Source: Anaerolineae bacterium
GTDB taxonomy: Bacteria; Chloroflexota; Anaerolineae; B4-G1; SLSP01
Reading direction: 5' to 3'
DNA length: 64,000 bases
NCBI GenBank assembly: GCA_026645815.1
Contig: JAPKMR010000019.1
Span: forward strand, 1-64,000
The position numbers were made by a program, and so were the translations under genes. Of this stretch, positions 1,898 through 9,638 are shown one piece after another. A model generated the notes under the pieces. That model was not told where the DNA came from and ran no database searches. It was given only the letters and a program-made list of their open reading frames with translations. The number at the start of each line of letters is the position of its first letter. Position 1 is the stretch's first letter.

Positions 1898-2893
1898 CTA
1901 CTTCCTGCTCCCGTAATTGAACTGCGTGTGCTCCTCGTTGCGGTCCGTCGCGGGTGGCGGTTCCGGCGAGAGTGCGCCGATTTCCGCCCGCAGTTCCGGC
2001 GTCATCGCAATCTCCAGCGCGCCGAGCGAATCCTCCAACTGCGCCAGATTGCGCGCACCGATAATCGGTGCGGTGACCGCGGGATGGCTTCCCGCCCACG
2101 CCACCGCCAGGCTCACCGGGTGATAGCCGCGCGCCTGCGCGAACGCCGTGAAATCCTCCGCCACCTGCGTCATCCAGCCATCGTGATAGCGGGTCTGGTA
2201 CATCGCATTGCTCACCAACCGTCCCTGCTCGGGGCGGCGATTGACGCCATATTTGCCGCTGAGCAAGCCTCCGCCGAGCGGGCTGTAGGGAATCACGCCC
2301 AGCCCCTCGGATGCCGCCAGCGGCAGAATCTCCACCTCCGCCTGCCGCTTGACCAGGTTGTACATCGGCTGCAAGACCGCAAACGGCGCCCAACCCGCCT
2401 TGGCGGAAATCCCGAGCGCTTTCGCCACCTGCCAGGCGGCGAAATTGCTCGCCGCGGGATAGAGAATCTTGCCCTGCGTGACCAAATCATCCAGCGCCCG
2501 CAGCGTCTCCTCCAGCGGTGTGAAATCGTCGAAGCGGTGGATGAAGTAGACATCAATCCGGTCCGTGCCGAGCCGTTTGAGGCTGCCCTCTACGGCGCGC
2601 AGGATGTGGTAGCGTGTCGCGCCCCGTGCGTTCACATCGGCGCTCATCGGGAAATAGACCTTGCTCGTGATGACGACCTCATCGCGGCAGGGCGCCATCA
2701 GCTTGCCGAGAATCTCCTCCGCGCGCCCGTGTTGGTAAACGTCGGCGCAATCGAAGAAGTTGAGGCCCTTCTCCCGGCAGCGGTGGAACATCGCCGCGGA
2801 AGTCTCCTCGTCGGCATCCCCGCCGAAAGACATCGTCCCAAAACACAGCGGCGAGACCTGCACCCCTGTCTTGCCCAAAAACCTGGTTTCCAT
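1898..2893 (-). CDS. Aldo/keto reductase
   Basis: NAD(P)H-dependent carbonyl reductase of the AKR superfamily, 331 residues from the ATG at 2893, which has GGAGG just upstream. It starts METRFLGKTGVQVSPLCFGTM and shows the catalytic-tetrad context FFDCADVYQHGRAEEILGK (Asp, Tyr), a Lys in VVITSKVYF and the sub-barrel RIDVYFIHRFD. The C-terminal cofactor region is PIIGARNLAQLED. An in-frame extension upstream to 3319 exists only because the minisatellite at 2922-3090 is open in this frame; it is unlikely to be translated. The substrate cannot be told from sequence. Confidence 0.92.
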   Translation of the reverse strand: METRFLGKTGVQVSPLCFGTMSFGGDADEETSAAMFHRCREKGLNFFDCADVYQHGRAEEILGKLMAPCRDEVVITSKVYFPMSADVNARGATRYHILRAVEGSLKRLGTDRIDVYFIHRFDDFTPLEETLRALDDLVTQGKILYPAASNFAAWQVAKALGISAKAGWAPFAVLQPMYNLVKRQAEVEILPLAASEGLGVIPYSPLGGGLLSGKYGVNRRPEQGRLVSNAMYQTRYHDGWMTQVAEDFTAFAQARGYHPVSLAVAWAGSHPAVTAPIIGARNLAQLEDSLGALEIAMTPELRAEIGALSPEPPPATDRNEEHTQFNYGSRK

Positions 2894-2921
2894 ACCTGCC
2901 TCCTCTGCATAGTGGTGCCAC

Positions 2922-3090
2922 GGCATCCTGCCACGCTCGTGGCTGCGGCATCTCCCACGTCTGTAGCCGCGGCATCTCCCGCGTCTGTAGCCGCGGCATC
3001 TCCCGCGTTTGTAGCCGCGGCATCCTGCCGCGCTCGTAGCCGCGGCATTCTGCCGCGCCCGTAGCCGCGGCATCCTGCCGCGTTCTCTCA
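2922..3090. repeat. GC-rich minisatellite, about seven 24-25 bp units
   Basis: Consecutive imperfect units of the form GTAGCCGCGGCATCTCCCGCG plus a variable TCT, TTT, CTC or CCC end. Each contains a CGGCA...TGCCG near-palindrome in the later copies. The array fills the upstream region of the aldo/keto reductase. The two middle units are nearly identical and the outer ones are degenerate. The rest of 2894-3218 shows no gene. Confidence 0.85.
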
Positions 3091-3218
3091 GTATATGCGA
3101 GATCGGAGAAACGTAAATTCCCACGGCGTGCCATTTGCGGCAGAAACCTCTCCCCTTGCGGAATTCAGCGCGCTGCCTCAAAAACCTTGGCGCCTCTGCG
3201 CCTTGGCGCGAGCCTTCC

Positions 3219-3638
3219 CTACCCCGGTAGATTCCGCGATAGCAGCTGAATGTCCGTGCGCACCTGCCAACCCTGCGCCTGCCAGAACGCCAGCGCCGGC
3301 GCATTCGTCCTGAACACAAACAAATGGCACTTATCTATTCCGGCTTTCTGCAGCGCCGCGAGTACGCGCTCGACCAGCTGCCTGCCCACCCCCTGCCGGC
3401 GATATGCAGGAGCTATCGCCAAGTGGTGCAGATAGCCGCGCCGCCCATCGTGCCCGCAGAGCACCGCCCCGACCACCGTTGCGCCCTCTACGGCGATAAA
3501 GCCGTGCCCCGGATTGCGCTCCAGATAGCGTGTGATACGTTCGCGGGAGTCTGCGGCGCTCAAGCCCACCCCCTCCGTCTGCTCCCATAGAGCGGTGACG
3601 GCATCATAATCCTGTGGCGTCATTTCGCGGATGTCCAT
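3219..3638 (-). CDS. GNAT-family N-acetyltransferase
   Basis: Small acetyl-CoA-dependent acetyltransferase of 139 residues from the ATG at 3638. An in-frame ATG at 3650 would add four. The fold elements are MDIREMTPQDYDAV (strand 1/helix 1), GFIAVEGATVVGAVLCG (strands 2-4), the acetyl-CoA loop YRRQGVGRQLVERVL and the C-terminal ALAFWQAQGWQ (the usual xxFYxxxGF element). The acceptor substrate is not predictable; the arrangement is like the YpeA/RimI-type small GNATs. Confidence 0.88.
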   Translation of the reverse strand: MDIREMTPQDYDAVTALWEQTEGVGLSAADSRERITRYLERNPGHGFIAVEGATVVGAVLCGHDGRRGYLHHLAIAPAYRRQGVGRQLVERVLAALQKAGIDKCHLFVFRTNAPALAFWQAQGWQVRTDIQLLSRNLPG

Positions 3639-6218: not shown

Positions 6219-7553
6219 TTACGCTGGCTTTTGGACTTCGTCCATGTAGGCTTTGATCGTTGGCAGACCTGCCATCTTATCATAGAAGAAGTTGTTGACG
6301 ATGTTGATAACTTCTGCGCGTGCGGCTTCCGCTTGTTCGTTCAGGGTTTTGCCCACCTGTTGGCGGCTCAGCAGGTCGCGCAACCGCAGCAGGTAGCGCA
6401 CGATCTCCGTTTCCTTTTCCCCTTCAAGTGCCTCGATGACGGCAACGATCAGGTGATCGGTCTCAGCCAGCAGGTTATCCAGCGGGATGGTTGCCCCCGG
6501 TTGAAAAGCATCATCAATCGTGCGGATGAGCGACCAGACCTGATAGAGGATGGTGGTCGGCTCATCGAAAATCTCGCGCAAGAAAGCGGCTTCCTGATAG
6601 CGTCCTGTCAGGCGGAAGAGGTTGTACATTCGTTTGGCAGCTTTGCCGTAGTTCTGCGGTGTATAACGCAGGTACTGCTGAACCTGTTTCTCCATTGCCG
6701 CGACATAATCTGCCAGAACGTCCGGTGAGACATGCTTGACCAGCTTTGAGAAGATGGGCGCGGATTCGGCTTCGAGGTAGATTTCCTGGAAGTAGGCATC
6801 CAGGTAACCATCGAGTGGGATGATGGCGCCATCGGGCGCCTCCCAGGTCACATCGAGCATGTTGCTGGCGTTGGATAGGCGTTGGTGTATGGGGTCGGCT
6901 ACTACCCAGTCGAGCTTGCACCAACCGGGATCCTGGGCAGCTTGCTCCCAGGTGAGCGTGACGGGCGTGCCATCTGGTAGTTCGGCGACGATGCCACCCG
7001 CTTCGACTTCATTCGCGGTCCAGGCGATGGGGGAGCCTGCGCGCAGGGGGGTTCCTTCTTTCACTATCTCAAAGGGATATGAGCCGAATTTGACCTCGAT
7101 GAGCTGGTAGGTCCCCCCGCGCAGCGTGCTGAGCGCTTTCTCACGCATGATCTCACCCAAAATGCGGCAGGCCTCTTCCCGCGTCGGCGCGATGATATTG
7201 ACGCGTTCGAAGTAATCGCAATCGCCGGGATGGGTTTGAATCTTTGATTGTGCTGCTGAGCCGGAAAGCGCCAGTGCGGTTTCGACGACACCAGGGACGT
7301 CGTGAAACTCCACCAATTTTCCGATCTCACGGAAGCGCGCCAGCTCTGCCGGACTGAAGTCTAGCATGCTGATTTTGTGCCCAAAAACGCCGGTCTTTAC
7401 ATCCATTGTGATGTCATCATCGCCTTTCATTGTCTGGATGGCATCCAGCCAACGGCGGGCTTCATCGGCGTTGATTTGCATTCCCAGTCGTGCAGCACTC
7501 TCGAGAATGCTATCCAGGTCTGGTTGGTTCGGTGTTTCGTGTTTGTCAGTCAC
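6219..7553 (-). CDS. Uncharacterised protein with nucleotidyltransferase-like motif
   Basis: 444 residues, not assigned to a family I can name. A GS-x(n)-DxD pattern, SGSAAQSKIQTHPGDCDYFE (about residues 97-116), resembles the catalytic signature of the nucleotidyltransferase fold. It is followed by a helix APTREEACRILGEIMREKA. The C-terminal half is helical (AAMEKQVQQYLRYTPQNYGK, VRYLLRLRDLLSRQQVGK), as in poly(A)-polymerase-like or minimal nucleotidyltransferases. It starts within the last four bases of the exonuclease gene (7550-7553), a strong sign of co-translation. Enzymatic activity is an inference; a structural search would decide. Confidence 0.72.
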   Translation of the reverse strand: MTDKHETPNQPDLDSILESAARLGMQINADEARRWLDAIQTMKGDDDITMDVKTGVFGHKISMLDFSPAELARFREIGKLVEFHDVPGVVETALALSGSAAQSKIQTHPGDCDYFERVNIIAPTREEACRILGEIMREKALSTLRGGTYQLIEVKFGSYPFEIVKEGTPLRAGSPIAWTANEVEAGGIVAELPDGTPVTLTWEQAAQDPGWCKLDWVVADPIHQRLSNASNMLDVTWEAPDGAIIPLDGYLDAYFQEIYLEAESAPIFSKLVKHVSPDVLADYVAAMEKQVQQYLRYTPQNYGKAAKRMYNLFRLTGRYQEAAFLREIFDEPTTILYQVWSLIRTIDDAFQPGATIPLDNLLAETDHLIVAVIEALEGEKETEIVRYLLRLRDLLSRQQVGKTLNEQAEAARAEVINIVNNFFYDKMAGLPTIKAYMDEVQKPA

Positions 7554-8182
7554 AATGTAGCTCCTTTCATCGTTGTATCATCCAAATTACATGCTTCCTC
7601 GCGCGCGCGCCGCACCTGTGCTTCCGCCAGCACCGCCGCGAAAATCTCTGCTTGATCGCGTGCATCTTGTAGTGCGTTGTGCGTGAGTTTGCGCCCCTCC
7701 AGATAACGGGTGGAGAGGTATTGCATCGAGGTGCGAGTCCAGGAGACTCCCGTCAGTCCCATGTAGAAGGCTTTGATATCCAGCGCTGAGTGCCCAAAGG
7801 GATTGAAGCGCAGAAAATGGTGGAAATACTCGTTCACGAACATCCAGTCGAAAGGGGCATTGAGCGCCACGAAAATGGGCCGGTGTCTGGGAGGTATAGT
7901 TCTCTCTACCCACTCCGCGAACTGCCGCATGGCTTCTCTTGGGGGTGTGCCATTTTCTGTGAGTTCGGCCATCGTCAGATTGGAAATGGCCAAAGCTCCA
8001 GGCACAGCATCCATAGTCACCGGTTGCAGCTCGATGTAGAATCCCACATCGGGGTTCTGCACCAGACACGCGCCGATGGAAAGCATGGAATACCGAATGG
8101 GGTAAGGCCCGGCAGTCTCTACATCTACCGAAATATAGCACTCGGTAGAGATATTGGGCTGAACATTGGGTTTCTCGCTCAT
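7550..8182 (-). CDS. DEDDh 3'-5' exonuclease (RNase T/DnaQ-like)
   Basis: 210-residue exonuclease. Exo I is CYISVDVETAGP (catalytic Asp and Glu), Exo II is FVALNAPFDWMF (Asp) and Exo III is LTHNALQDARDQA (His and Asp), giving a complete DEDDh active site. The fold hydrolyses nucleotides from 3' ends of RNA or DNA. Its position between photolyase and the nucleotidyltransferase-like gene, with a 4-base overlap to the latter, suggests nucleic-acid repair or processing. The DNA versus RNA preference cannot be told. Confidence 0.88.
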   Translation of the reverse strand: MSEKPNVQPNISTECYISVDVETAGPYPIRYSMLSIGACLVQNPDVGFYIELQPVTMDAVPGALAISNLTMAELTENGTPPREAMRQFAEWVERTIPPRHRPIFVALNAPFDWMFVNEYFHHFLRFNPFGHSALDIKAFYMGLTGVSWTRTSMQYLSTRYLEGRKLTHNALQDARDQAEIFAAVLAEAQVRRAREEACNLDDTTMKGATL

Positions 8183-8222: not shown

Positions 8223-9638
8223 TCATCCCTTGGCGGCTTTGTAGGCTGCCAGCGTGCGTTCCCGCGCCATGCTGTGATCTACGATCGGCGCTGGATAATC
8301 CATGCCAATCATACACCCAATTGCACGTTGTACCTCTTCCGGCATGGTCCACGGGCGATGAATGCCGGCTGCTGGTGCGCCCTGTAGTTCCGGTATCCAG
8401 CGTCGAATGCTTGCACCCTCAGGGTCGAATTTCTCACCCTGCAAGGTGGGGTTGAAGATGCGAAAGTAGGGTGCCGCATCCGTGCCGGTGCCGGCAGACC
8501 ATTGCCAACCCCCATTGTTCGAAGCCGGGTCTCCATCGAGCAATTGCTCCATGAAATAGCGCTCGCCCCAACGCCAGTCAATGAGCAAGTCCTTGGTGAG
8601 GAAGGAGGCTACAATCATCCGCGCGCGGTTGTGCATCCAACCGGTCGCGCGGAGTTGGCGCATCGCCGCATCTACAATGGGATAGCCTGTGCGCCCTTCT
8701 TGCCAGGCGCGGAATTCCTCGGGGTCATTACGCCAGTGAATGGCGTTGAACGCGGGCCGAAAACTACCACGCCGCACGTGTGGAAAGTGGTAGAGGATAG
8801 CGCTGTAGAACTCGCGCCAGAGGATTTCGTTGAGCCAGGTCTCCGCGCCTCGCACATTATCGCAGCGGCGCAGCTGCCCCCGCGCTTCGATGACAGTGGC
8901 TGCTGCCCGCCGCGCTGAAAGCATTCCAAAGCGCAGATAAGGGGAAAGCCTGGAGGTGCCATCGAGGTCCATCCGGTCACGGTTGGTGGCATAAGCACAC
9001 ATCATGTGCTCTATGAAGCGCTCAAGACGCCGTTGTGCCTCTGCCTCGCCAGGGGGGAATTCGCTCGCTTCCGGGTCTGCCAGCTTCGGGGTTTTGCTTT
9101 CCAGGTGTATCCCCCTAACCCCCGGCGGCGTGGGAATCCGCGCCGGAGCAGGTTCCAGTTCATCCAGATTCGGTTGCGAAAGCGATTTCCAGGCACGGCT
9201 AAACGGCGTAAACACGGTGTACGGCGCGCCATCTTGCCGGTGTACGGCATCCGGAGGCATGATGGTTAATCCGCCGTACAGGTGGAGGGTCAGTTTGGAG
9301 GCGACTTCTGCATCGCGTTGCCGTGCATACGGAGAGACGTCAGCTTCCGCGAAGACGGCTTCGGCGCCGGTATCTGCCTGTAACTCTGCCAGCACTTCTG
9401 CCGGATGCCCCTCGCGCAAGATGAGAGCGCTGCCGCGCGCCTGCAGGTCTGCATCCAGAGCGCGCAAGCCTCCCAGCAGGAATGCCAACCGTCTCTCGCT
9501 CATATATCGCGACTGTAGCAGTCCCGGATCGAGAATGAAAACGGGCAGTACCTGCTCCGCGCTTCGCAAAGCCGCTGTTAGCGGCTGATTGTCGCCTAGC
9601 CGCAGGTCACGACGAATCCACCAAATGCCCCTCTCTAT
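8223..9638 (-). CDS. phr: Deoxyribodipyrimidine photolyase with apparent ATA start
   Basis: Light-driven repair of cyclobutane pyrimidine dimers using FAD and an antenna pigment. The Rossmann N-domain opens [17 protein letters not shown]. The FAD domain contains [57 protein letters not shown] and [13 protein letters not shown], all characteristic. The first ATG (9569) would delete the first strand and the RRDLR motif, so translation should begin near 9638. There the in-frame codon is ATA, 6 bases after a perfect AGGAGG (minus strand of 9645-9650). This means a rare ATA start or a base error for ATG. From 9638 the product is 471 residues. Confidence 0.93.

Follow-up and report, generated by a model that had tools for sequence, protein, structure and literature searches.

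Two overlapping genes in the window, the 64,000-nucleotide stretch of Anaerolineae DNA analysed here, form a real, selected two-gene module. One encodes a predicted exonuclease related to Cap18 of CBASS, and the other a protein whose predicted fold is of the nucleotidyltransferase type found in giant viruses and virophages. Both identities are new relative to the initial annotation of this DNA. That annotation had proposed a tail-adding and tail-trimming pair for RNA or DNA, and we likewise infer such a role. In our preferred reading, to which we assign a probability of about 0.45 with the identity of both proteins included, the nucleotidyltransferase (NT) would add to 3' ends and the exonuclease (EXO) would trim them, on DNA sooner than on RNA.

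Both genes are encoded on the reverse strand. EXO (7550..8182 (-); 210 aa, ATG start) precedes NT (6219..7553 (-); 444 aa, GTG start), and the TGA stop of the former overlaps the start of the latter by 4 bases (7550..7553 (-)). The sequence AAAGGAG lies 7 bases ahead of the NT start. A DEDDh exonuclease and a 444-residue GS...GDCD protein with a four-base overlap had been described initially, and we confirm them at these positions and on this strand. Measured against two near relatives (L040 and L041), dN/dS was 0.059 and 0.067 for NT and 0.089 and 0.093 for EXO; both genes are under purifying selection.

A DNA photolyase gene (8223-9569 (-)) lies on the same strand 40 bp upstream of EXO, and an MFS transporter gene lies downstream of NT. 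Among 96 loci, the photolyase neighbour is restricted to L040 and L041, which also keep the remaining gene order of the window. Because these two assemblies repeat that order, photolyase and MFS flanks included, misassembly of the window genome (4.94 Mb, 92% complete, 6% contamination) is unlikely. A DNA-repair operon that includes the photolyase is retained as no more than a hint. Elsewhere in the window, a GC-rich 24-bp tandem repeat of 6.8 copies (2917-3082) lies within an open frame for an aldo/keto reductase (1898-3319(-)); it is in the 5' part, beyond the segment that Pfam matches.

The putative catalytic residues of EXO (D20, E22, D112, H168, and D173; DEDDh, span 7664..8125 (-)) do not vary among the 14 relatives aligned. 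Pfam matches were to Rv2179c-like (E 5e-8) and RNase_T (5e-7). The sole solved structure with a good match was PDB 7T2S (E 1.4e-43), identified as E. coli Cap18 in passages of PMC12345164 and PMC11208441, and the PADLOC effector exonuclease model PDLC00753 matched at E 7.2e-69. By sequence, EXO is a Cap18-family DEDDh enzyme with predicted 3'-5' exonuclease activity.

The initial annotation had not recognised the family of the second protein, and for sequence families this stands. NT matched nothing in Pfam, PF01743 included (searched up to E 10, with filters that drop most matches above 0.1), and nothing in NCBIfam or PADLOC up to E 1. Against PHROGs (to E 1) there was one chance-level match (PHROG 25324, E 0.03). 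PDB sequences, queried with NT alone and with profiles of 16 and 68 rows, gave chance-level matches only, and the profiles did not reach Mg662, a Megavirus protein considered below. Adenylosuccinate synthetase, Sestrin, and MIC60, matching at chance level, were rejected as relatives. Scans of IMG/VR with the NT protein and two profiles yielded no relative and hence no bridge to viral sequences.

Enzymes of the Pol-beta type share a pattern of GS, DxD, and a later Asp. GS occupies residues 98-99 of NT and GDCD residues 110-113, and the motif G98-S99 ... D111-x-D113 (GSAAQSKIQTHPGDCD; 7215..7262 (-)) is invariant in 91 of 91 homologues. The initial annotation had singled out these GS and DxD residues, and their conservation bears it out. 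Conservation and the NT tree were both computed from 105 rows cut to 91 at 95% identity, with one partial sequence (L039) excluded. The residues invariant throughout were G98, S99, A101, Q102, P109, D111, D113, K213, D215, W216, K304, and R308. D215, within PGWCKLDW (6909..6911 (-); 91/91), is the candidate third catalytic Asp; its place in the sequence and on strand 213-220 of the structural model suggests a third metal ligand.

As regards fold, NT did prove recognisable. An AlphaFold2 model of the window protein (16-row alignment, pLDDT 83.4, pTM 0.81) retrieved three Mg662 entries with Foldseek (E 8.5e-6 to 3.7e-5), the next match reaching only 5.7e-3. VIA-align gave the same entries Z 20.3, 20.2, and 18.6 (rmsd 3.5-3.6 over 287-304 residues) and the next chain 7.9; the best was 4ams (Z 20.3, rmsd 3.6, 300 residues). 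A second model, of a Calothrix NT member (68-row alignment, pLDDT 83.1), aligned to Mg662 with Z 20.1, 19.8, and 17.6, the best being 4xul (rmsd 3.6, 301 residues). With Z 20.3 and 20.1 from two separate models, the initial guess of a nucleotidyltransferase-like protein is supported, and we assign NT a predicted nucleotidyltransferase (Pol-beta superfamily) fold of the Mg662/virophage type. The model places an all-helical C-terminal domain at about residues 262-441 (6231..6770 (-)).

A viral structure library (BFVD) gave 15 matches to the window model at E <0.001, the best at 9e-13. They include Zamilon V6BPH6, mavirus, Yellowstone Lake virophage 5, Qinghai Lake virophage, and several giant viruses. 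The Calothrix model had 17 viral matches at E <0.001, of which one, chloriridovirus W8QN57, was rejected as kin for its TM-scores <0.2. The models thus indicate a fold shared by NT and the Mg662/virophage proteins, a likeness we state at the level of fold and not as common descent. The core of the Calothrix model also aligned to poly(A) polymerases, TUTases, cGAS, and a CD-NTase (Z 6.1-7.1), rows that weigh little alone because helical coincidences reach Z 10 in that list. We took TRPML, kinesin, and Hpt rows as such coincidences, and FAM46 and DncV rows of the window model (Z 6.4-6.8) as weak core similarity only, not as family membership. This fold would fit polymerisation, synthesis of a second messenger, and modification of proteins alike.

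A table in PMC3671162 (2013) lists Sputnik V21/OLV5 with no detectable domains, function unknown, and no other homologs, and a table in PMC3991649 gives Zamilon ORF7 (442 aa) as a V21 homologue. Our Zamilon match V6BPH6 is likewise 442 aa, and one Fadolivirus match is named 'V21 virophage-like protein'. From this length and this name, V6BPH6 would be ORF7, apparently the homologue of Sputnik V21, and the V21 family would have the NT fold. According to the PDB entry title, the Mg662 structure was solved with GTP, and the literature searched contained no text on Mg662 function.

The distribution of NT is sporadic. It was found in 17 of 301 genomes of the window's phylum and, with the window genome included, in 16 of 48 of its order and 3 of 5 of its genus. 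Phylum samples around a Calothrix, an Acidimicrobiia MAG, and an Armatimonadetes MAG had it in 2 of 194, 3 of 198, and 4 of 151 genomes, respectively, centre genomes included. One scan of genome contigs detected relatives at 296 loci, of which the best 80 were kept; the nearest named loci among these are Chloroflexota MAGs. None occurred on 72,556 plasmid records or on 50,697 phage records. Identity of ~55-65% across phyla together with this patchy presence suggests horizontal transfer or repeated loss. Cultured carriers of the pair are Bellilinea caldifistulae (L053), Levilinea saccharolytica (L096), and Nostoc strains (L114, L115).

The pair is conserved beyond the window genome, as the initial annotation had raised for checking, and NT is often found without EXO. 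Within the best 80 of 296 loci, which lie nearest the window and so overstate linkage, EXO adjoins NT in 66: upstream on the same strand in 56 and downstream on the opposite strand (convergent) in 10. Nine of the ten convergent loci are cyanobacterial and one (L074) is from Chloroflexota. The remaining 14 of these best 80 had no EXO (9 where each flank was 1 kb or longer, 5 where flanks were shorter). Some of the 80 come from genomes that the phylum sample also contains (L053 with L024; L079 with L025).

The even phylum sample gave the adjacent pair in only 4 of 17 NT-bearing genomes. At its 16 loci besides the window, EXO was upstream on the same strand in 2, divergent in 1, and absent with full flanks in 12 (among them the partial NT match L039); the last locus was cut by a contig end, and its genome (G255) has EXO at the margin of a different contig. 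In 10 of the 17, no EXO match reached E 1e-5, which suggests that EXO is accessory to NT. The order sample divided by family: across ten loci, window included, the six of the window's family had EXO beside NT, and the four of family f2 had none within 1.5 kb. A set of 18 NT-bearing genomes, nearly all without a known adjacent EXO, contained EXO in 6 (4 already known beforehand), with one (G361) convergent beside NT. By these counts, the two genes are strongly linked close to the window and among cyanobacteria, and only weakly elsewhere.

The two genes also co-occur at the level of genomes. In the phylum sample, EXO was present in 7 of 17 genomes with NT and in 6 of 284 others (odds 32, p 7e-7), at a cut of >100 bits set in the gap between 119 and 58 bits and among related genomes that are not independent. 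Dropping the 100-bit cut and using E 1e-5 alone gave EXO in 25 of 301 genomes, split as 7 of 17 that have NT and 18 of 284 that lack it. Three arrangements occurred over all loci (upstream same strand, downstream convergent, and divergent), and the NT tree requires at least 11 changes among them. For the EXO tree we hand-picked 54 of the 91 distinct rows for spread; the tree has a very long branch (L134). On it, a single clade of all linked EXOs was rejected (35 rows versus 19; p-AU 0.002), subject to long branches and a bootstrap still unsettled. EXO of the cyanobacterial type shares 30-34% identity with that of the window and forms one clade with four unlinked EXOs; all 12 rows come from NT-bearing genomes, and three of the four unlinked ones were sought in such genomes only.

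EXO and NT genes therefore associate repeatedly. Association of a Cap18-type exonuclease with a nucleotidyltransferase outside CBASS probably arose more than once. These data bear on the idea of incidental pairing, in which an accessory NT gene shares an operon with an exonuclease by chance. That NT is often alone, and that the best 80 of 296 loci overstate linkage, would fit it. Three arrangements, EXOs of more than one lineage, and odds of 32 are nevertheless hard to explain by inheriting one chance event, and we give this idea hardly any credence.

The surroundings of the pair showed no further constant partner. Besides NT, EXO, and overlapping shadow frames, no open-frame family occurred in more than 9 of 96 loci, and the families in 5-9 of 96 reflect local synteny. 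We inspected 125 open frames, picked by length and not called as genes, flanking the pair at 37 loci. Among the 25 of 161 families listed, they include sigma-70 factors, DnaG, glycyl-tRNA synthetase, and transporters. PADLOC matched ten families among these 125, with 1-3 members each by raw count and no run of defence genes. The commonest (MzaA, RT_UG29, and DnaG-like, 3 each) are probably cross-matches, the last surely to DnaG. These neighbours speak against a defence island. A replacement nuclease at EXO-less NT loci was also sought, and ten scanned neighbours included one PIN-domain gene. In two related genomes, a ComEA-like gene (SLBB plus helix-hairpin-helix) lies downstream of a stand-alone NT (L034 5638-6321 (-); L036 5682-6374 (-)). 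The pair is near a DnaG gene at L044, L101, and L113, the first of which has sigma-70 and glycyl-tRNA synthetase genes close by as well; the three share one chromosomal site.

Relatives of EXO, by comparison, do occur with defence genes. An EXO match was present on 95 plasmid records. Five were opened, of which four were annotated, and their genes are 49-51% identical to EXO. On one (L162) the Cap18-like gene is accompanied by a CBASS cyclase, an ATPase, and an MTA/SAH nucleosidase, and on another (L159) by SAVED, nucleotidyltransferase, ThiF, and Mov34 genes. Two more (L158 and L160) encode a protein matching a PADLOC TIR effector, L158 also HORMA; their incomplete gene tables show no cyclase. 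In one Chloroflexota genome without NT (G016), a Cap17-like gene lies beside the Cap18-like exonuclease, and this locus (L173) is probably CBASS.

The main rival to our reading builds on these contexts: the pair would be a CBASS-like signalling or abortive-infection module, with NT making a nucleotide signal in place of the CD-NTase and EXO serving as ancillary nuclease. Besides the ~50% identity to plasmid genes, of which two of five opened sit with a CBASS core and two with a TIR effector, and the Cap17-like neighbour in G016, it draws on the weak resemblance of the NT core to cGAS and CD-NTases (Z 6-7) and on the sporadic presence of NT in four phylum samples and its own order. Set against it are the lack of a conserved effector or third gene at NT loci, the lack of a defence-gene run among the 125 flanking genes at 37 loci, and the absence of NT from the plasmid and phage records. 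An hhalign comparison of NT with one CBASS cyclase, a single sequence on the cyclase side, gave a probability of 0.1%. The operon itself contains no CBASS effector, its flanks being photolyase and MFS genes. A search for SAVED (PF18145) elsewhere in the window genome gave no match, as did its control. We consider this module unlikely.

In E. coli, a catalytically dead Cap18 left phage protection unchanged, as recounted in a passage of PMC9122588. Text in PMC11208441 terms Cap18 a DNA exonuclease, and in the review PMC10419184 its substrate is given as ssDNA or ssRNA. A Cap18-like gene of Borgs is described in PMC11208441 as clustered with endonuclease III. When the flanks of EXO were scanned in six phylum-sample genomes with EXO and without NT, three showed nothing telling. 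In 2 of 3 f40 genomes (L178/L179; G147 and G067), an HhH-GPD DNA glycosylase gene adjoins the Cap18-like gene; in the third (G271), its scanned neighbours are aldehyde dehydrogenase and PEP carboxylase. G147 and G067 are small Chloroflexota genomes. A DNA-repair role for Cap18-like enzymes outside CBASS is possible.

Our preferred reading of 3'-end addition and trimming can be drawn up from these elements. NT would transfer nucleotides, template-free, onto the 3' end of a nucleic acid, EXO would remove 3' nucleotides from ends of that class, and the pair would thereby set the state of those ends. DNA ends from damage or invading DNA seem a slightly likelier substrate than RNA ends, because the literature presents Cap18 as acting on DNA and because DNA-repair genes adjoin some of the Cap18-like genes. 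The photolyase upstream in the window and the Cap18-like genes beside HhH-GPD genes are hints in the same direction. As the EXO partner is often missing, NT would be useful on its own too.

The same two activities could serve RNA, as tailing and trimming of 3' ends in tRNA, mRNA decay, or small RNA. This is suggested by poly(A) polymerases and TUTases among the NT core matches, by the match of EXO to an exoribonuclease domain (Rv2179c-like, E 5e-8), and by the GTP in the title of the Mg662 entry. The window genome encodes a PolyA_pol/CCA-type enzyme elsewhere, so NT was rejected as the cell's CCA/poly(A) enzyme; as NT is also missing from most relatives, it would not be a general housekeeping tailing enzyme. 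Passages of PMC11208441 calling Cap18 a DNA exonuclease also count against RNA, though ssDNA or ssRNA is given in PMC10419184. We regard the RNA reading as quite unlikely.

Pol-beta-fold enzymes also include NMPylating transferases. NT might accordingly modify a protein or metabolite, possibly as a toxin or regulator acting with EXO, and the overlapping two-gene module would suit such a function. NT without any EXO is common, however, and PADLOC has no match for NT; furthermore, the helical C-terminal domain is common to NT and Mg662, which is named a nucleotidyl transferase. Modification of this kind is very unlikely in our judgement. An obligatory toxin-antitoxin pair with EXO as the antitoxin was rejected, since stand-alone NT is common.

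The pair may also work in bacteria as a system of its own, directed at DNA that is foreign or damaged, in which a virophage/giant-virus-type NT would replace the CBASS cyclase next to Cap18. We hold this reading to be rather doubtful. Were it true, the V21/Mg662 fold would gain a cellular setting, and viral orphan proteins would gain a function by analogy. Independently of that reading, a sizeable bacterial family without a Pfam entry (296 loci in one scan) is now placed, by predicted fold, in the Pol-beta superfamily. It is tied by that fold to virophage and giant-virus proteins, for which the table in the 2013 paper (PMC3671162) gave no known homologues. Cap18-type exonucleases are now associated with a nucleotidyltransferase outside CBASS. 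With the pair present in cultured bacteria, this fold is open to activity tests in a cell. The open-licence PMC literature, a scope that leaves aside subscription journals and preprints, contained no paper that we could find on the bacterial EXO-NT pair.

Comparison with known systems sets the module apart from each of them in part. NT shares a type of catalytic core with poly(A) polymerases, TUTases, and CCA enzymes (Z 6-7 for the first two), but has no Pfam match, and this fold match is far weaker than that to Mg662. Like the CBASS core, the pair sets a nucleotidyltransferase next to a Cap18 nuclease; unlike it, NT loci are without a conserved effector or third gene, and NT is not recognisable as a CD-NTase by sequence. 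EXO shares family sequence and catalytic residues with Cap18 of CBASS (E. coli, 7T2S), whereas its partner is NT rather than a CD-NTase plus effector, and no CBASS gene was found nearby. Compared with Mg662 of Megavirus chilensis (4AMS, 4AMQ, and 4XUL) and the virophage proteins, NT is just 9-16% identical, with no match by sequence profiles, and it stands on bacterial contigs with ~65 extra N-terminal residues and an exonuclease partner. From residue 66 to the end, in both core and helical domain, its predicted structure resembles theirs.
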